Of a stretch of 64,000 bases of DNA, positions 5,114 through 36,215 are shown in pieces. The position numbers were made by a program, and so were the translations under genes. Under the pieces are notes generated by a model. That model worked only from the letters and a program-made list of their open reading frames with translations, was not told the DNA's origin and made no database searches. Origin of the DNA: Streptomyces sp. Tue 6430 (GTDB lineage Bacteria > Actinomycetota > Actinomycetes > Streptomycetales > Streptomycetaceae); assembly GCA_021568835.1 (NCBI GenBank), contig JAKGSH010000007.1, forward strand, positions 1 through 64,000, given 5' to 3'. How positions within the stretch are numbered: the stretch's first letter is position 1; the number at the start of each line of letters is the position of its first letter.

Positions 5114-5470
5114 TCCGGACCGCCCGCGCCCCGGACGGGCGGCCGTCACGCGGGGGCGCCGGAGCGGGACCTCGGAACTGGTCGATCGGACCGGCGCGGT
5201 CGACGGGGCGTCCCGAACCCGAGCCGAACCGTTCCCGCCGGAACCACAGCAGAGTCGGGCGCGACAAGCGCCTTCTCCGGAGGGAGCTCCGGGGACCGCT
5301 CCCGCGTGTACCGGTGCACCGGACGGTGTTCGGCCCTCATACCGACCTTCGCGTGGTTCCGGCACCCCTGCCTGCCGGCGAAGACCGGCGCCCGGCCCTC
5401 TTCCGCGACGCTCGGATCGGACCTGCGCCGGGCATCCGGCCACCCCCACACACACGACGCACGCCTGACG
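5114..5470. other. No recognisable gene
   Basis: Open frames on both strands are Arg/Pro/Gly-rich and overlap one another without ribosome sites. The stretch leads into the MmyB-domain remnant and may be eroded 5' sequence of that gene. Confidence 0.5.
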
Positions 5471-5701
5471 GAGCTGATCCGGTTCCCCGGCGCGGGCGAT
5501 CGCGCCCTCGCCCGGCTGCGGGCGAGCGGCACGGTGGCCGCGCACCGCGAGAACCGCAAGACGGTCGGACATCCCACGACAGGGCGCGTGGAGGTGGACT
5601 GCGACGTCCTGACCTACGGCGACTGCGGACTCGAGGTCGTGATCCTGACAGCGTCACCCGGCAGCCCGGCCGAGGACAGGCTGCGGCTCGCCCTGTCCGC
5701 C
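5471..5701 (+). pseudogene. Remnant of an XRE/MmyB-type regulator, C-terminal domain only
   Basis: The frame reads ELIRFPGAGDRALARLRASG, HRENRKTVGHPTTGRVEVDC, DVLTYGDCGLEVVILTASPG and SPAEDRLRLALSA. This matches the end of the MmyB ligand-binding domain found behind XRE helix-turn-helix motifs in streptomycete regulators (typical pattern: HP..G...LDCDVL......L.VV.YTA.PGS...D.L.LL). No helix-turn-helix or start can be found upstream. The domain is followed at once by a 7-bp tandem repeat, so this is a fragment rather than a gene. Confidence 0.6.
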
Positions 5702-13839: not shown

Positions 13840-13930
13840 CCGAGCCGTCCCGGTGACGCCCGTCCGCCGTTCCGCGGGGCCGCCCCGAAATGCGTTTCAC
13901 GTGCGGAGAACAGGTCCCTGGAGTGACGCG

Positions 13931-14465
13931 GTGACGACGACTCGGATGATCATTCTCAACGGTGGTTCCAGCTCGGGGAAGTCCGGCATCGTGCGGTGCC
14001 TCCAAGCCGTACTGCCCGATCCCTGGCTCGCGTTCGGGGTCGACTCGTTCGTCGACGCGCTGCCCGCCGCGCTCCAGGCGTCCGGGGCGGGGCTCGAGAT
14101 CGCGGCGGACGGCCGGGTGAGCGTCGGAGCGGAGTTCCGGGCCCTGGAGGAGGCCTGGACCGAGGGCGTCGTGGCGATGGCCCGCGCCGGCGCCCGGATC
14201 GTCGTCGACGACGTCTTCCTCGGCGGAGCCGCGTCCCAGCAGCGGTGGCAGAAGGCACTGGGGACGTGACGGCGCTGTGGGTCGGCGTCAGGTGCGGGAG
14301 CGAGGTCGCCGCGGGCCGTGAGATCGCGCGGGGGACCGCGTGCGGGGGATGGCCGCTTCGCAGGCGGACGCGGTCCACCGGGGGGTGCTCTACGACCTGG
14401 AGGTCGACACCACGCACACCGAGTCCCTGGCGTGCGCGCGCGCCATCGCCGCCCACGTCCGCTGA
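13931..14465 (+). CDS. cpt: Chloramphenicol 3-O-phosphotransferase-like protein (two frameshifts)
   Basis: Restoring two single-base losses (near 14265 and 14331) gives 178 residues, the length of the Streptomyces venezuelae enzyme as I recall it. [20 protein letters not shown] contains the Walker A loop. [14 protein letters not shown] carries the Asp near the substrate, [12 protein letters not shown] the second acidic motif, [20 protein letters not shown] follows, and the end reads [20 protein letters not shown]. The enzyme phosphorylates the primary hydroxyl of chloramphenicol. Here it may give self-resistance or act on another phenicol-like alcohol. GTG 13931 has GGAG upstream. A large bipartite terminator follows. 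Confidence 0.85.
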
Positions 14466-15990: not shown

Positions 15991-16379
15991 GTCCTGAACC
16001 GCCTCTCCATCTCTACGACTTGGGCACCCTACGAGGGTGCGGACGCGGGAGCGACCGGTTTCTCCCGCGCCCCGTCGCCCCTGACTTCGGCCGTCCGGGC
16101 CGTCCGGGCCGTCTCGGTCGTCTCAGCCGTTTCGGCCGCCTCACCGGCCCCACCCTTCCGGCCGGTTGCCGTCGCGGCCGGGCCGGCGGCGCGCAGGACT
16201 CCGCGGCGGGAGCCGGCGGGTACGCACCCGCCGTGTTGCACCGTCACCGCGGTCGGGCGACCTCTACACTGCGATCACTCTCGCGCCGAAAATACCCATT
16301 TGTCACTTTCTCTATGGATGTGGATGTCGATGTGGATGTCGGCCGTCCACTGTCCGTCTGCTGCCCGAGGAGGCACCCC
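15991..16379. other. Intergenic stretch with a 9-bp repeat and 12-bp repeat
   Basis: No gene. It contains the 9-bp minisatellite at 16089-16142 and a duplicated GATGTGGATGTC at about 16315-16340. It also carries the AT-richer sequence expected for the multicopper oxidase promoter (about 16280-16320). Confidence 0.5.
16089..16142. repeat. 9-bp tandem repeat, six copies
   Basis: Units GGCCGTCCG, GGCCGTCCG, GGCCGTCTC, GGTCGTCTC, AGCCGTTTC and GGCCGCCTC run without gaps between the phosphotransferase and multicopper oxidase genes. Confidence 0.9.
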
Positions 16380-17930
16380 GTGACCACTCTGCCCCGACGC
16401 GGCGTGCTGAAAGGCCTGCCGCTCGCCGCCGGTGCGGTCCTGACGGCATCGGCGGCGAGCGCTCACGCGATGCCGCCCGTGCATGCCCACGCGGTGCCGC
16501 GCCGCGAGGAGGACCCCGGCTTTCCGCAGCCGGAGACGCGCAGCACCCCGCCCTGGGCAACTCCCTGACCACACGGCTCACGGTCGGATTCACCGAAGCG
16601 GTGATCCCCGGCGTGGGCACCGTCCGCACCCGTACCTACGAAGGGGCGGTCCCCGGGCCGACCTTGCGGGTGCGCCCCGGCGACACCCTTCGGATCACGC
16701 ACGTCAACACGCTGCCGCCGAACCCCGCGGGCCCCCACCAGGACGTCAACGTCCCCCACCGTTTCCACACCTTCAACCTGCACACCCACGGCATGCACGT
16801 GGACCCGACGGGCGACGCGGACAACGTGTTCCGGGCCTTCGAACCCGCCGCGGAGCCGGGCGGCGCCACGATCCACCGCAGCAGGGTCACGGTCCCGGCC
16901 GGGCATCCCGCCGGCACCTTCTGGTACCACCCCCACCATCACGGGTCGACGGCCACCCACGTGCTCAACGGCATGGCCGGTGTCATCGTCGTGGAGGGCG
17001 ACGTCGACCGGGTCCCCGAGATCGCCGCCGCCCGTGAGGTCGTCGTCTGCGTCAACGAACTCCGCCTGAACGGCGGGCGGGTGCCGGACCTGACGTCGGA
17101 GGGCGCCTTCGAGGGCCTCGCCCCCACCTTCCTCGTCAACGGGGCGCGGAATCCCGTCCTCACCATCGCGCCCGGCGAGGTGCAGCGGTGGCGGATCGTG
17201 CACGCCGGGGCGCTCGCCCCGCTCTCCCTGCGGCTGGACCGGCACACGATGCACCAGATCGCCCGGGACGGCATCACCTTGATGGCCCCGTCGCCTCCTC
17301 CACGGTGGCCCTGCCCATGGGCGGCCGGGCCGACGTGCTGGTCCGCGGCGGTGCGCCCGGCACGTACGAGCTGATCACGGACGGCGTCGACCGGCCCCTG
17401 ATGACGGTGGTCGTCACCGGCCGGCCCCGCGAGATGTCGCTGCCGGCCGACCTGCCCGGACTGCCCACCAGCCTGCCCGCCCCCACCCGCACCCGGCACG
17501 TGGCCTTCCGCAGCTACAGCAACGTCTTCCCCGGCGCCTTCCCCAACGCCTACCGCATCCTGGGCGACGGGGAGACGCCGCACGCCGACGCCTCGGCGGG
17601 CCCACGGGACCTTGCCTGGGGCCGCTTCTCCCCGACCACGTCAACCACCGCGTCCGGCTGGGCGAGGTGGAGGAGTGGACCGTCGCCAACAACTCGCACA
17701 GCCATGCCCACCACCCCTTCCACCTGCACACCAACCACTTCCTGCTCACGGCGGTCAACGGCCGCCCGCTGACCACCCCCGTCTGGCACGACACCGTCGA
17801 CGTCCCGCCCCGCAGCACGATCACCTTCCGGCTGTGCGCCGAGGACTTCGAGGGTCGCTCGATGCTGCACTGCCACCATCTCCAGCACGAGGACGAGGGC
17901 ATGATGCAGATCGTCGAATACGTCCGCTGA
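16380..17930 (+). CDS. Tat-exported multicopper oxidase (three frameshifts)
   Basis: About 517 residues once -1 shifts near 16548, 17280 and 17628 are bridged. GTG 16380 has GAGGAGG upstream. The twin-arginine signal is LPRRGVLKGLPLAAGAV. All four copper motifs are present: FNLHTHGMHV, WYHPHHHGS, HAHHPFHLHTNHF and MLHCHHLQHEDEGMM. The last has the Cys ligand of the blue-copper site and an axial Met. Three cupredoxin domains fit bilirubin-oxidase/CotA-like enzymes, which oxidise phenols, bilirubin or metal ions with reduction of O2 to water outside the cell. It appears to be a single-gene unit. Substrate not predictable. Confidence 0.9.
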
Positions 17931-18840: not shown

Positions 18841-21694
18841 TCAGTGCTCCGCCGGCAGCCCCGTCACACGGAGCGCTGACACGCCACGGGCCGCGGCCGG
18901 TCCCTCGGCCCTGGTGGTGAGGACCGACAACAGGCCGTCCCAGGCCTCGAGGCGGCCCGCGTCCACGGCGGTGCGGTAGGCCTCGTGCGCCTCGACGAGG
19001 CGGCCGGCCTCCCGGTAGAGGGCGCCGAGCAGGGCGTACGCGTCCGTGTCTCCGCCCGCCGCGCCTGCGCGGTAGGCCTGCTCGGCCGCCGGCCTGTCGC
19101 CGACGTCCTCGCGGACCCGGCCCAGGGCTGTCCAGGCGTCCGTCGCACCCAGCGTGGTGGCCCGCTCCACGGCGCGCCGCGACCCGTCGCGGTCTCCGGC
19201 CCGCTCGCGGACACGGGCCAGCGCGGACCAGGCCGACGGGGAGCCGTGTTCGGCGGCGAGGTCGGCGGCCCGTTCCGCACCCGGTGGGTCGCCGGCGGTC
19301 TCGCGCGCCCTGGACAGCGAGATCCAGGCCTCGACGTCCCCGGAGCGGGCGGCCTCCGCCGCGGCGCGCTCCGCGCCGGCATCGTCGCCGCGCGCCCGGC
19401 GGACCGCCGACAGGGCGGTCCACGCGTCGCCGTCGCCCGCCTGTGCCGCCCGGGCCGCGGCGTCCTCGGCCGCGTCGCGGTCGTCATGCGCGTCGGCGAG
19501 CAGGGCGAGGTCGCGCCAGGCGGCGCTGACCCCGTGCGCGGCCGCCTGCCGGTGGGCGGCCCGCGCTCCCTCGGCGTCGCCGTCCCGCGTCCGCAGGAAC
19601 GCCAGTGCCGACCAGCCTTCGGCGGTACCGGCCCGCGCGCCTTCCTCGGCCGCGCGCAGGGCCGCCTCCCGGTCGTCGCGCGACCAGTGCAGACGCACCG
19701 ACTCCGCCCAGGCGGCCGTGACTCCCGCGGCTGCCGCGCGCGACGCGTGTCCGGCCGCCGCCGCGGTGTCGCCCGTGCCCGCCGCCAGGCGGGCCAGCCC
19801 CATGTGCGCCCAGGTGTCGCCGGCGGCGACCGCACGGGCGTACGCGTGTGCCGCCGACGGCGGGTCCCCGCACGCATGCGGCCGAGAACACCCCACACCA
19901 GCGGGTGCCCCGCGGCCACCGCCTCGTCCGCCACGGCGTCGGCTCCGGCCCGGTCCCCGCTCTCCTCGCGCAGCCGCGCCAGCGCGGCCCAGGCCCAGCC
20001 GTCCCCCAGTTCGGCCGCCCGCCGGTACGCGGCCTGCGCGCCGCCGCCCGCGTCCTCCCGTGCCACGGCGAGGGCCGCCCAGGCCGTCGCGCTCGGGCCG
20101 GCGGTCTCCTCTGCGGCGGCAGGGCTCGCCGTGGTGTCCAGGAGCACGGCCCAGGCCGCGCGCGCCCGTTCGCTGCCCAGCTCCACGGCCCGCTCGTACA
20201 GGACGACGGCTCCGGCGTAGCGTCGTCGCTCCTCGGCGGCCCGGCCCAGCGCAAAAGCGTCGTCGCCCGTTCTGGTCCACCGCCCGGCTTCCCAGAAGCC
20301 GGGCGGTGGCGCCCGGTGAGCGCGAACCCGGCGTACGTGCTGTTCGAGGTAGTCGTCCGGCCGGTAGCCGTCCGCCTTGCCGACTCCCGGCCCGTGGCGG
20401 TCGGCGATCAGTGCTGCGGGGCCGCTGTCCGGCGACGTCAGGGTGTCGATCGCGGTCTCGAACCAGTTCTCGCCCGCGGTGGCCCGGGCGGTGGAGTCCA
20501 TGAAGGCGACCGCCGCGTCCATCAGCAGGAGCGGCGGACCGCGCTGGTGTGGCCCAGGCGACGCACCTCGACGGCCGCGGTGAGTACGGCGTGCTCGGCC
20601 GCGGTGAACCAGTGATCGGGGCCGTCCTCCCAGTGCCGCACCAACTCCGGTCCGCAGGTGAGGTGCTGGAGGATCCGCCGGCCGGTACCGGCCGCTCGCA
20701 CGGCGGCGGCCATCCGCGGGTCCCGGGCCGCGGCCCGCCTGGTCGCGGGATGGTCCGCCGGCAGCAGTTCGGGCACGCGGACGGTGGCGTTCCGCCCGAC
20801 GATCAGAGAACGGACGTGGAAGTTCTCCTCCGGGTCGCCGCGGCCGGTGGCGGTCAGCCGCCGCAGGTGCTCGGGCCACATCGTGCCGATGACGGCGAGC
20901 GGCGCGATCCGGTCCAGCAGGTCACCCAGCGCCCGGGCGGCGGCCTCGCCGGACGCGCCGGTGACATAGCGCTGGGTCTCGTCGAGCCACAGCACGGTCC
21001 GCGCGTCGATGCCGTCCTCGTCGATCCAGCCGGTCAACTGGCGGGCGTCGGCGGGGTGCAGGACGGGCCAGTCCGGCAGTGTCTCCCTGACGGCTTCGTA
21101 GGCCGCGCGCGTCTTGCCCGTCGCGGAGCGCCCCACCAGCAGCGCGAACACGGTGCCGTCGGCCGCCGCCGCGTGGGCGAGGCGCCGGCGCAGCGTCGCG
21201 TCGTGCGGACGCTCGACGTACTCGGTCAGCGGCCCGCTCGCCGTCCCGTCGCTGCCGGGCGAGGGGCGCACCCCCAGTCCTACGGCGTCCCAGTGGGCGG
21301 CGGTGCGGAGCGCGACCGGGCGTTCCTGCTCGGCCCGCAGCCAGAGCGGATGCAGGTCCGCCGCCACGACGGCCGGGTCCGCACCCGCGCGCCGGGCCAG
21401 GGCCGACGCCAGTGCGAGCGTGTCCCGGAGCGATCCGGGTTCGGGCGAGCCCAGGAGCCCGAGGACCGTGGCCTCCGTCGTGTCCCCCTCCCCCGGCTCC
21501 CCCGGTCCCTGCGTCTCCGCCGTCATCGCGGCGAGTCGGGCGGGGGACGGCGTGCCGCCCGCGCGGTACAGGGCGTGGAGGCGTCGTTTCAAGGTGCGCA
21601 GTGCGCTCGGCGGGAGCCGAGGAGGTGTCAGGGGGCCCGTGCCGGCGGCGGGCCGAGGCGTCGTGTCCGGCTCGGGGACCTGCCCGCTCAGCAT
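18841..21694 (-). CDS. P-loop NTPase with eleven 32-residue helical repeats (two frameshifts)
   Basis: About 951 residues, last gene of a coupled run. ATG 21694 overlaps the stop of the double-STAS gene (ATGCTGA) and has AGGAGG upstream. Residues 28-60 are a short helical segment I cannot assign. Residues 165-370 are a P-loop domain with Walker A GRSATGKT (188-195) and Walker B VLWLDETQ (234-241). From about residue 550 to the end there are tandem repeats of exactly 32 residues, consensus G...AW.aLarvRe..GD..gAerA...A. TPRs are 34 and Sel1 repeats about 36 residues. One-base losses lie near 20540 and 19868. The layout resembles STAND-type signalling ATPases with a repeat sensor arm, but I do not recognise the family. 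Link to STAS partners suggests a phospho-switch-controlled ATPase. Confidence 0.78.
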
Positions 21695-22533
21695 CTGCCG
21701 CCTCCTGCGGGCCGGGCCTGTACGACTCGGTCGGGAACGCGTCTCCCGGCGGCGTCCGCGCCGTGGCGCCCCAGCCGCTCGACGACTCTCCCGACCGAGT
21801 CGTACAGGTCGAAGTGTCTGTTCGGAGCGGTGATGCGGAAGATCTTCCGCACTCGCTCCGACGTCACCACCAGGGTGACGTCACCGCCGCGAGCACGGGC
21901 CCGTACGAGCGTCCTGCGCAGCATGAGCAGTCCGGCCGAATCGATCAGGCCCAGTCCGGTCAGGTCCACGACCAGCAGGCACCGCCCCTGTCCGATCAGG
22001 TCGGCCGTGAGAGCGTGCATCGGCCGGGCGGTGTCGACGTTCAGGTCGTCGGTGTCGGGGTCGTTGCCGACCCGTACCACGCCGACGCTCTCGGACAGGT
22101 GCTCGTACGACAGAGGAGCAGGTGCCGGTCGCTCCGTGGGGCCGCCCCGGTCACCGGAGCCCGCCGACTGTTCCGGGCGGGCCAGGTGCTCGACGGCGCG
22201 GGCGACGGTGGGAAACACGAGGACGGCCTTCACCAGCCCCGTGACCCGCAGGATCTTCCCGATCCGCTCCTCGGTGAACACGAGCACCAGGGCGCCGCCC
22301 CGCGCCCGGCTGCGCGCCACCCCGCGGGTGATCTCGCCAAGGCCGGTGCTGTCCAGGTGGCCGGAGCGGCTCAGGTCGACGATCAGCCGGCTTCGCCCCT
22401 GTCGCAGCAGATCGAGCAGGGTGGCCCGGAGTACGGGCGCGCCGTACACGGTGACGTCCCCGGCGACGCGGATCACGGTGACGGCGTCCGACAGGTGCTC
22501 GTGGGTCACCTCGATCGGGTCGTGCGTCGTCAC
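21688..22533 (-). CDS. Double STAS-domain protein (anti-anti-sigma-like)
   Basis: 281 residues from GTG 22533, whose GTGA overlaps the stop of the upstream STAS gene. Two full STAS domains lie in tandem. The first (residues about 8-100) has VTVYGAPVLRATLLDLLRQG and phospho-site VDLSRSGHLDSTGLGEI. The second (about 130-245) has VVDLTGLGLIDSAGLLML. Both keep the Asp-Ser pair phosphorylated in SpoIIAA/RsbV proteins. Such proteins bind anti-sigma kinases when unphosphorylated. No kinase or sigma factor gene is adjacent. Instead the downstream coupled gene is a repeat NTPase. Two domains in one chain suggest bridging or avidity. Confidence 0.88.
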   Translation of the reverse strand: MTTHDPIEVTHEHLSDAVTVIRVAGDVTVYGAPVLRATLLDLLRQGRSRLIVDLSRSGHLDSTGLGEITRGVARSRARGGALVLVFTEERIGKILRVTGLVKAVLVFPTVARAVEHLARPEQSAGSGDRGGPTERPAPAPLSYEHLSESVGVVRVGNDPDTDDLNVDTARPMHALTADLIGQGRCLLVVDLTGLGLIDSAGLLMLRRTLVRARARGGDVTLVVTSERVRKIFRITAPNRHFDLYDSVGRVVERLGRHGADAAGRRVPDRVVQARPAGGGRC

Positions 22534-22907
22534 GGGGCGACCTCGGGGGGCTGGACGCGAGCGAGCGACTCGACGGCTTGCGGCACGGTGTCGGACAGGA
22601 CGAAGACGGCGTCGAGACCGGCCTTGGCCAGTGCCTCCCGGTGTTGCCGCATGCCGCAGACCAGCGCGATCGCGCCCCCACCGGTCCGGCACAGCTGGAG
22701 GCCGTGCATCAGCGCCGCCAGGTCGAAGCTCCACAGCTCCCCCATGTCGGCGAGGTCGAGGACGATCCGTACCCGCCCCTGCCGCGCCAGGTCCGCGATC
22801 AGGACCCGCAGCTGCCTGCCGTCGCGCGAATGCTGCACCGCGGCGGTCGGAGCCACCAGGGTGACCTCGTCCGTGAGATGTTCGACCGAGGCCAGGTGGT
22901 CGTCCAC
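22530..22907 (-). CDS. Single STAS-domain protein with altered phospho-site
   Basis: 125 residues from GTG 22907 with GGGGAG 5 bases upstream. The fold is STAS: VTLVAPTAAVQHSRDGRQLR, VRIVLDLADMGELWSFDLAA, LVCGMRQHREALAKAGLDAV. The usual Asp-Ser phospho-motif (DSxGL) reads WSFDL here: a Ser is kept but the preceding Asp is Trp. It may therefore escape the normal kinase or act as a constitutive partner. Its stop overlaps the start of the double-STAS gene by four bases, showing translational coupling. Confidence 0.82.
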   Translation of the reverse strand: MDDHLASVEHLTDEVTLVAPTAAVQHSRDGRQLRVLIADLARQGRVRIVLDLADMGELWSFDLAALMHGLQLCRTGGGAIALVCGMRQHREALAKAGLDAVFVLSDTVPQAVESLARVQPPEVAP

Positions 22908-23043
22908 GTACTCCCCGCTTCACAAAGGCGTTTGACAGCACATCAGCGTGCCACAGGAGTGGCGTCGCGTGCCGGGAGAACGCGTCGGCCCCGCGCCGGG
23001 TTCCGATGGCCGGGGAAGCGCCGGGACGGAGGGCGCCGCCCGG

Positions 23044-23655
23044 TCACTCCGTGCCGGTCAACGCGGTCCGGGCCGCGCTCAGGAACTCCCGATGGGCGAG
23101 GGCGTGACGCTCGGGCGGCTCGGACTCCGCGAGGGTCGTTTCGAGGGCCTCGGCGGCCACGGTGACGGTGTCGGGGCCCTCCAGCCGGATCACGTTGAGC
23201 GCTTCCCGGACGGCGGGCAGGGCCGCGCGGTACGCGTCCCGGTGTGCGGCCGCGTCCGTCGTGCCGGCCGCGTCCAGCCACCGGCGGCGCCGCTGGTGGG
23301 CCAGGTCGGCGCCGGCCAGAAAGGTGACGTACGCGGCCCGGCGCACCGTCCGCCGGGCCGCCAGCGCCTGGGCGTCGAGGGTCCGGGTGGCGACACTGAG
23401 CTGTGCCTCGGCCTGCAGGCGTCCGGCGTCCCACGCCGCGTCGGCCTGCCGACGCCCCGCCTCCCAGGCGGCCTCGGCCTGGCGCCGGCCGGCCGCCCAT
23501 GCCGCGTCCGCCTGACGGACCGCCGCGTCGACGGTGCTCTGCGCCTGGCGTCTGGCCGAAGCCAGTGTGAACCATCCCGTCACGGCGCCGCCGGCGACCG
23601 CGCCGGCCAGCGCGGAGCCGGCGGCGATCCACGCGGTGATCATCTCGTCGGCCAC
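23044..23655 (-). CDS. Membrane-anchored coiled-coil protein with 11-residue repeats
   Basis: GTG 23655 has GGGGGAG just upstream and gives 203 residues. ATG 23643 is an alternative. One N-terminal membrane helix (ITAWIAAGSALAGAVAGGAV) is followed by a coiled coil in which an 11-residue unit (QADAAWAAGRR, QAEAAWEAGRR, QADAAWDAGRL) is repeated three times. This hendecad pattern gives a slightly right-handed coil. The C-terminal 100 residues are helical and charged. It lies 136 bp upstream of the STAS genes on the same strand and could be the membrane end of that system. No family recognised. Confidence 0.65.
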   Translation of the reverse strand: MADEMITAWIAAGSALAGAVAGGAVTGWFTLASARRQAQSTVDAAVRQADAAWAAGRRQAEAAWEAGRRQADAAWDAGRLQAEAQLSVATRTLDAQALAARRTVRRAAYVTFLAGADLAHQRRRRWLDAAGTTDAAAHRDAYRAALPAVREALNVIRLEGPDTVTVAAEALETTLAESEPPERHALAHREFLSAARTALTGTE

Positions 23656-24252: not shown

Positions 24253-25427
24253 ATGATCTTTCGTCGTTTGCGGTTATCAGCCGCGGTGCTGGCGCTGGCT
24301 GTGTCATCCCTGCCGTCCGTTGCGGCCTCGGCCGCGCCGCGCCCGTCCGGCACGGCCTGGTCCGTGCAGCGTGACGCCGACGCGCTGCGGGACACCGGGG
24401 TCACCGGGGTGGCGGTCCGCCTGGAAACCTCGCGCGGGACGGTCACGGCCCGCTCCGGGGTGGGGGACCTGGTCACTCGCCGGCCGGTTCCGAAGGACGG
24501 CTACCTGCGTCTGGGCAGCACCACCAAGACGTTCGTCGCCACCGTCGTGCTGCAACTGGTGGGCGAAAAACGGATCTCCCTCGACCGGACGGTGGAGCAA
24601 CTGCTGCCCGGGGTCGTGTCCGGTGCGGGAAACGACGGCCGGACCATCACCCTCCGCGACCTGCTGCAGCACACCAGTGGCCTGTCCGACTACATCCATG
24701 ACGTCTTCCCCGACCCGGCGCCCAGACCTACTTCGCCAACCGGTGGCGGTCCTACGAACCCGAAGAGCTGGTGGACCTGGCCATGCGCCATGAACCCGCC
24801 TTCCCGGCAGGCACCGGTTGGGCGTACTCCAACACGAATTACGTGCTCATCGGAATGATCATCGAGAAGATCACAGGCCGTACCTGGGAACAGCAGGTCC
24901 ACGACCGCATCCTGCGCCCGCTCGGCCTGCGGCACACCGACACCCCCGGCACCCGGCCCTTCCTTCCGCATCCGCACACGGCCAACCACCAGCAGTTCAC
25001 CGCGGACGGCCCGATGGTCGACACCACGATCCCCTACCGTCCCTTCGACAGCGGGGCCGACGGCTCGATGACCGGCACAGCCCGCGACCTCAACCGCTTC
25101 TTCGCGGCGCTGACAGGTGGACAGTTGCTGAAGCCCGTCGAACTCGCTGCCATGCGGAACACCGTGCCGGTGCCGCAGGACAGCGGTCACCCGGAAGGCA
25201 CCGAAGACGGCCTGGGCCTGTTCTTCACTCCTCTGTCCTGCGGCGGCGGCTACCTCGGGCATGGAGGAAGCGGCTTCGGCTATGTCGTCCGGGCGGCGAG
25301 CACCACGGACGGTCGACGCACCATCACCGTCTCCGCACACAGCCGCTCCGCGGACCCGCAGACCACGGCCCGTCAGGAAGACGCACTGCGCGACCTCATC
25401 GACCACGCCCTGTGCCGCACCGCCTGA
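24253..25427 (+). CDS. Secreted serine hydrolase, beta-lactamase/DD-peptidase family S12 (one frameshift)
   Basis: About 391 residues. Signal peptide residues 1-28 (LRLSAAVLALAVSSLPSVAA). The active-site tetrad motif is STTK in LGSTTKTFVATVVLQLV, the second motif is YSN in GWAYSNTNYVLIG and the third is HGG in YLGHGGSGFGYVV. A one-base loss near 24720 splits the frame within the AQTYFANRWRSYEPEELV region. Family members hydrolyse peptidoglycan D-Ala-D-Ala or small esters/peptides outside the cell. Resemblance to the Streptomyces R61 DD-peptidase group is apparent but not specific. No partner genes. Confidence 0.88.
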
Positions 25428-35769: not shown

Positions 35770-36215
35770 GGCGACCCCGAGGACGGCGCGGACGCGCTTG
35801 CCGACCGGGACGCGGTCGACGGTGACCTCGGTGGCGATGGCGTGCACGATCTCCAGACCGTGGCGGCCCACCCGGCGGGGGTCCTTGGGGAAGCGCAGCG
35901 GCAGCCGGTCGCTGCTGTCGTACACGGCGACCGTCACCGAGGTGTCGGTGCCCTCCAGCTCCAGGATGTAGGGCCGTTGCTGTGCCGGTCGGCATTGGTG
36001 ACCAGCTCGCTGACGACCAGCATGACGTCGTCGCCGAAGCGGTCGTCCATGCCCGCGCACCACTCCGTCCTGAGCTGGTCGACGAAGTGGGCGGCGAAGT
36101 CGCGGGCCTCGGCGATGGAGCCGGGTTCACCGGTGTAGTGCGCCGCGCGGCGGAGCGGCTCCACGGGTACGTCGAAACCGGTCGGTATCACTGCCCCGTC
36201 CAGGTGCTTGATCAT
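35761..36215 (-). CDS. Anti-sigma-like histidine-kinase-type ATPase (one frameshift)
   Basis: About 151 residues from ATG 36215. SIAEARDFAAHFVDQLRTEW and FGDDVMLVVSELVTNADRHS carry the N-box (ELVTNADRH) of HATPase_c_2 proteins. After a one-base loss at about 35973 it continues YILELEGTDTSVTVAVYDSS and PKDPRRVGRHGLEIVHAIAT (G-box). Proteins of this RsbW/SpoIIAB-like group bind sigma factors or phosphorylate STAS antagonists. Facing the sigma gene end to end suggests that sigma is its partner, but that is inference. N-terminal 40 residues are extra to the minimal domain. Confidence 0.85.

Follow-up and report, generated by a model that had tools for sequence, protein, structure and literature searches.

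The gene row in the window

The window analysed here, a stretch of 64,000 nucleotides from Streptomyces sp. Tue 6430 (assembly GCA_021568835.1, contig JAKGSH010000007.1, positions 1 to 64,000), holds a row of four minus-strand genes in which two genes for STAS proteins lead directly into a gene for a P-loop nucleoside triphosphatase (NTPase) with a long repeat arm. The row opens with a gene that we label TM-coil and runs through a single STAS gene and a tandem STAS gene to the NTPase gene. Its features are as follows (L numbers denote loci and G numbers genomes throughout).

23044..23655, minus strand: TM-coil gene, first of the row, 203 amino acids; Gly/Ala-rich N-terminal hydrophobic helix, long helix, helical bundle
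22530..22907, minus strand: single STAS protein, 125 amino acids, site ELWSFDLA; TIGR00377 6e-6 and PF01740 0.001, both below cut-off
21688..22533, minus strand: tandem STAS protein, 281 amino acids, sites HLDSTG and LIDSAG; PF01740 6e-25 in two stretches
21688..21694, minus strand: ATGCTGA start/stop overlap of the tandem STAS gene and the NTPase gene, read from the sequence
20522..21694, minus strand: NTPase frame piece 1, with helical N-terminal domain (about residues 20-130), P-loop GRSATGKT and Walker-B-like VLWLDETQ; AAA_16 below cut-off
19881..20537, minus strand: NTPase frame piece 2, start of the repeat arm; aligns in a different frame with residues 386-606 of intact L042
18841..19860, minus strand: NTPase frame piece 3, TPR/Sel1-type arm up to the stop; matches L042 residues 627-951 and L067 residues 490-826; TPR_14 9e-7

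A first-pass annotation had described three of these genes as translationally coupled, and both overlaps are present: GTGA joins the single STAS gene (22907-22530) to the tandem STAS gene (22533-21688), and ATGCTGA joins the latter to the NTPase gene. The tandem nature of the second STAS protein is equally clear from its two PF01740 stretches (TIGR00377 matches at 3.5e-27). The TM-coil gene lies upstream on the same strand, separated from the single STAS gene by the 136 bp originally given; its designation as a membrane protein is borderline, the best 19-residue hydropathy being 1.45 in the window and 1.34-1.78 across the three copies measured.

The NTPase had been expected to be a protein of about 950 residues. 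The P-loop and repeats are there, and the length fits the intact L042 relative, which has 952 residues from its first possible start and 942 if counted from the ATG overlapping the stop of the STAS gene. A single open frame is not found in the window: the frame opening at 21694 ends with a stop at 20522, and the L042 protein covers 21673-20537, 20537-19881 and 19821-18847 in three successive frames, which amounts to two frame changes. Assembly errors are a likelier cause than decay, because the source genome is 85.5% complete (10 contigs) and because the neighbouring PF00144 serine hydrolase gene (24253-25427) is split too, with profile positions 8-114 in one frame and 130-301 in another. Elsewhere in the window, a CPT-like gene (13853-14269) and a multicopper oxidase gene (16166-17772) seem cut short.

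Linkage and distribution

In a 68-row tree of NTPase cores, the window and its 13 nearest relatives form one clade (support 100/99), and a STAS profile applied to 76 sources places STAS genes beside the NTPase in all 14 rows of this clade. The duplicate locus L044 has a STAS gene too. The tree leaves aside L044 and L095 (duplicates of L068 and L050), the short L110 and L111, and L078, which comes from the same metagenome-assembled genome as L082; L054 and L113 (no hit), L126 and L180-L187 also lie outside it. STAS sequences from these loci, among them that of L125, a locus outside the clade, served as seed for the STAS profile, which was then run on all. The L125 STAS gene, at 5272-5604, was missed by tblastn with the window STAS proteins; the NTPase of that locus also has a TM-coil neighbour.

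Two groups make up the clade. Clade A has eight rows (the window, L042, L063-L067 and L069), and in each of them TM-coil, STAS (2-4 domains) and NTPase follow one another in this order on one strand, and the stop of the last STAS gene overlaps the start of the NTPase gene. Conservation of the neighbourhood in relatives, on which the first-pass annotation had staked its proposal, is therefore borne out, as STAS linkage in 14 of 14 clade rows and as the full gene order in 8 of 8 clade A rows. L180 and L181, located through their TM-coil genes, have the clade A order; if they are counted, such a row occurs in 4 of 238 genomes of the genus (G000, G078, G228 and G276). Clade B comprises six rows (L043, L062, L068 and L070-L072), and L043 and L062 carry a second STAS gene downstream. 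The STAS-NTPase linkage exceeds chance: STAS matches number 16 across G078 (three at the locus) and 8 across G082 (two at the locus), and these counts put the probability that a randomly chosen point has a STAS gene within 1.5 kb at about 0.2-0.4%.

The NTPase family extends well beyond this clade. Own genome included, matches were found at 1e-10 in 19 of 61 genomes and at 1e-30 in 16 of 150 genomes of the genus. Within the 150-genome sample, the near clade is confined to the window's genome and G078, G082 and G033, and this patchy spread fits accessory genes. An initial scan of a contig collection gave no match; a later scan with two peptide patterns drawn from a profile of four rows returned 88 stretches, of which 52 loci were confirmed. 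Because both patterns came from the near clade, distant relatives are undersampled there. Among 72,556 plasmid records, 70 contain a relative and none covers more than 80% of the query. One record beyond the 40 listed matches at one place with 60-80% identity, and a plasmid may thus carry a partial near relative.

The proteins of the row and their relatives

Across the 14 loci, 24 of 30 STAS domains carry Ser or Thr at the phospho-site; in the other six the residue is Arg, Ala, Asp or Tyr. The domain directly before the NTPase keeps Ser/Thr at all eight clade A loci, and all eight clade B STAS domains have Ser. The window's single STAS protein had been credited with a changed phospho-site; it is the surroundings that changed (WSFD against the usual DSTG), and the serine itself is retained. 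In a STAS tree, for which paralogous rows were drawn from two genomes only, the 30 system domains fall into a 32-row group (95/91) with one paralog pair, L127/L128. The L127/L128 STAS gene, which we take to be BldG, has an adjoining HATPase gene. By eye, an NTPase-start-like stretch lies between STAS genes in L063 (after 9066) and L066 (after 9105), perhaps the scar of a tandem duplication of the STAS-NTPase start.

The NTPase core has the Walker A consensus GxSSTGKT, with G65 and K66 invariant in a 65-row alignment. The general profile AAA_16 matches 54 of the 65 members, the best at 4.2e-8, a member that possibly passes the cut-off; nSTAND_NTPase5 matches two of 65 (best 0.005), and comparison with the NB-ARC profile by hhalign gives a weak match (probability 35.5, 97 columns). 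The repeat arm has TPR matches, and its best counterparts in a fold search are Sel1/TPR superhelices (Z up to 19.2, with high root-mean-square deviation); that search, made with the full-length L042 model, was dominated by the arm (residues 501-923) and barely probed the NTPase domain. Solved structures were also considered as relatives of the core and rejected, the best being mitochondrial DAP3 at E = 0.18 in a sequence search and a match at 0.36 in another, neither significant.

In front of the core, relatives carry a TIR (8e-33), caspase (1e-10), trypsin (6e-13) or alpha/beta-hydrolase (1e-10) domain. Fusions of these kinds were seen in L089, L124, L100, L108, L046, L059 and L073 (L059 and L108 by eye), and L058 and L075 have two putative transmembrane helices in this position, again by eye. 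No fused effector domain was seen in the STAS clade members scanned (the window, L043 and L067), and six of the eight clade A NTPases have lost the helical N-terminal domain, beginning instead at the STAS stop. A RHIM/BASS3-like motif, VVQAG..(V/I).G.VH.H, precedes the NTPase only in L080, L087 and L106 when a single pattern is run over 73 loci; the N-terminus of L085 has a similar motif by eye. In PADLOC, the window pieces matched only JetB (0.0027, tandem STAS) and LeoBC (0.028, TM-coil); ten full-length family proteins were matched in their front domains only (five of ten, best 2.4e-6), and the 65 cores met six families with one member each (best 0.0013).

With its P-loop core, TPR/Sel1-type arm and exchangeable front domains, the wide NTPase family looks like STAND/NLR receptors. 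The STAND-like layout seen in the first pass is upheld by the P-loop, the repeat arm and the swapping of front domains among relatives; that the family belongs to STAND proper is not established, since the STAND-specific profiles fit poorly at best and NB-ARC matches weakly.

AlphaFold models the TM-coil protein as a single helix some 100 residues long plus a helical bundle (mean pLDDT, the predicted local distance difference test, 88; pTM, the predicted template modelling score, 0.63), with the N-terminal hydrophobic helix uncertain. A Foldseek search with this model returned no match at E<=0.001, and a sequence search for known relatives returned nothing significant. The gene, found at all eight clade A loci, has a match in 12 of 238 genomes of the genus. 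All six full-length copies in these genomes lie within about 2 kb of an NTPase-family member: four are in a STAS row, and of the two outside the STAS clade, that of G119 adjoins a caspase-NTPase and that of G125 is oriented divergently from an NTPase. The TM-coil genes of L126, L182 and L185 are fragmented and are apparently decaying copies.

A candidate switch and its alternatives

We give about even weight to a reading in which BldG-type STAS proteins gate a STAND/NLR-like ATPase as a signalling module. The ATPase with its repeat arm would be the sensor. The dedicated STAS proteins, coupled to it in translation, would bind the NTPase through the face around their phosphorylatable Ser/Thr residue and would either hold it in a resting state or release it from one. 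An unlinked HATPase kinase would phosphorylate the STAS proteins, and the TM-coil helical protein would be the likely output or membrane anchor. In its favour stand the STAS linkage in 14 of 14 clade rows across several genomic surroundings, the start/stop overlaps, the Ser/Thr kept at most phospho-sites, the grouping of the system STAS domains with the BldG-like gene, the front domains of NTPase relatives and the position of every full-length TM-coil gene near an NTPase-family member. The mechanism itself is proposed by analogy with two pairs, MlaB-MlaF and VapS-VapC. The STAS protein MlaB binds the ATPase MlaF with Thr52 at the interface, and a phosphomimetic change weakens the pull-down (PMC7367683). 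VapS, also a STAS protein, holds the toxin VapC through its phospho-site face (PMC13373217).

Where the kinase might come from was addressed with a HATPase profile built from 18 sequences, which detected the positive controls L127 and L128. Each of 14 genomes contains 38-91 HATPase_c_2 matches, and an unlinked kinase is therefore available. The nearest HATPase genes are about 6 kb off in L063 and about 12 kb off in the window, where a kinase-like gene in two reading-frame pieces occupies 35785-36125.

Several observations weigh against gating by STAS proteins. Profile searching detected no HATPase kinase gene closer than about 6 kb to the gene row in the sequence covered at 16 loci (L064 extends only 2 kb downstream), a search alongside which phosphatases, sigma factors and other anti-sigma genes near the loci were not looked for. 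A simple phospho-switch is unsure even in MlaFB, because a Thr-to-Ala change in MlaB leaves binding intact (PMC7367683). Outside the clade, STAS occurs in one of 54 tree rows (L125, 3.4 kb from the NTPase) and in none of the other 53, an absence that covers less ground at some loci because these are short (L083 3.5 kb, L098 8.7 kb, L107 9.8 kb). In clade B, the STAS gene lies about 0.4 kb upstream and is divergent from the NTPase, and tblastn finds no TM-coil gene. A further seven TM-coil places in these 238 genomes are partial or diverged. Six of the seven have no NTPase by profile, and at one of the six, in G170, tblastn detects a 39-residue NTPase-like piece; at the seventh, the second TM-coil place of G276, an NTPase lies 1.6 kb off by profile. 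The Walker B consensus, VLWLNETQ, has Asn for Asp (the window has D), and the window NTPase core falls below every Pfam cut-off (17.6 bits against the 32.6 needed for AAA_16). The window copy may also be a broken, decayed gene, and the STAS tree leaves unsettled a single origin of the system STAS domains apart from the BldG-like gene. Partner switching directed at the NTPase, as first proposed, is favoured by the STAS linkage within the clade (14/14), by the STAND-like layout of the ATPase and by the negative HATPase profile search within about 6 kb, and disfavoured by the wider family; that the NTPase should occur mostly without STAS genes, named at the outset as a ground for abandoning the idea, holds for that family (1/54) and fails for the STAS clade.

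The main rival reverses the flow: the NTPase would sense, and the STAS proteins would be its output to anti-sigma kinases in a BldG-like network, with a sigma factor as the end target. The BldG-like character of the system STAS domains, the retention of Ser/Thr in 24 of 30 and the many HATPase_c_2 matches in each of 14 genomes are all consistent with this. However, the profile gave no HATPase gene within some 6 kb in the sequence covered at the 16 loci (the search did not extend to sigma factors or other anti-sigma genes), and the loss of Ser/Thr in six of 30 domains is not favoured by a pure antagonist role; we hold this scheme to be rather unlikely. An immune elaboration of gating strikes us as unlikely: an NLR-like cell-suicide or immunity module in which BldG-type phospho-switch STAS adaptors, in place of death-fold or amyloid adaptors, would gate the NTPase, unlinked HATPase kinases would set the threshold according to the stress state and TM-coil would be a BELL/HeLo-like membrane executioner.

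Alternatively, the NTPase could be a DNA-binding regulator of the AfsR type, built of a helical N-terminal domain, NTPase and TPR, with the STAS genes merely co-regulated. AfsR itself combines a NOD with a TPR domain (PMC10936776), and the N-terminal regions of many relatives look by eye like a helix-turn-helix (HTH). The HTH signal is weak (of five N-termini scanned, one matches HTH_3 at E=0.1, and L061 gives 0.016), and the N-terminal domain is missing from six of eight clade A NTPases, making this a distinctly unlikely explanation. The several STAS copies per locus, the six of 30 domains that lack Ser/Thr at the site and the WSFD setting in the window would suit stressosome-like oligomer scaffolds that serve the NTPase without a phospho-switch. 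Such a role is improbable given that the STAS copy adjoining the NTPase keeps Ser/Thr at 8/8 clade A loci. Finally, a chance adjacency could have been retained through common descent of related strains: flanks are common to L043/L062, to L070-L072 and to L065/L067, and L042 and L063-L067 partly share 0.15-2.4 kb upstream. Yet the 6-kb flanks still represent six surroundings if any shared stretch joins loci, or nine if the short upstream sharing is ignored; a STAS gene within 1.5 kb is expected at only 0.2-0.4% per place, and start and stop codons are coupled. We regard chance as extremely improbable.

The preferred reading, STAS gating of the NTPase, resembles several described systems in part. 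MlaFB likewise places a single-domain STAS protein on a P-loop ATPase with Thr at the interface, although MlaF is an ABC transporter and the NTPase here is STAND-like (PMC7367683). CapK+CapS and VapKSC have a STAS protein beside immune or toxin genes (PMC13373217); here no linked kinase was found, the STAS proteins have no visible winged helix and the partner is an NTPase. The CapK+CapS layout in particular (an HTH-STAS-GHKL kinase with a STAS-wHTH repressor) did not recur, since no linked kinase was found by profile and Pfam gives no winged helix in the tandem STAS protein. Anti-sigma factor antagonists of the RsbV (PMC8256260) and BldG type share the STAS fold and mostly a DS[T/A]G site, whereas the locus here has tandem, partly degenerate STAS copies and no anti-sigma kinase that was found.

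On the NTPase side, the NTP-dependent conflict systems, including iSTAND (Kaur et al. 2020, PMC7159879), also combine an NTPase, repeats and exchangeable TIR, caspase-like, trypsin-like and hydrolase effectors, but the gene row here is without a MoxR or vWA gene (the flanks were not searched for these). In the available part of that survey STAS appears only as the Csx3 fold and not as a partner, and it is absent from the corresponding parts of two further conflict-system accounts (PMC8195603 and PMC10907252). The BASS/BELL NLR amyloid signalosomes (PMC7889193) likewise pair an NLR gene with a gene for a small protein made of a helical bundle and a hydrophobic helix, and a RHIM-like motif occurs in three wider-family relatives (L080, L087 and L106). 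In contrast, the one pattern used does not find the motif in the STAS clade, where STAS proteins occupy the place of the amyloid adaptor. We found no report of a STAS-linked STAND-like NTPase in one open-access library.

The NTPase family as a whole, with its TIR, caspase, trypsin and hydrolase fusions and mostly weak AAA_16 matches, is a lead for undescribed conflict systems. Partner switching has so far been a topic of sigma factors and stress, and NLR-like receptors a topic of immunity. That switch proteins usually tied to sigma-factor control travel with an NLR-like ATPase in some Streptomyces suggests a new restraint on such a receptor. If this is true, one translation-coupled row would offer, in multicellular bacteria, a direct and testable connection from developmental or stress state to the switching-on of a receptor-like ATPase.

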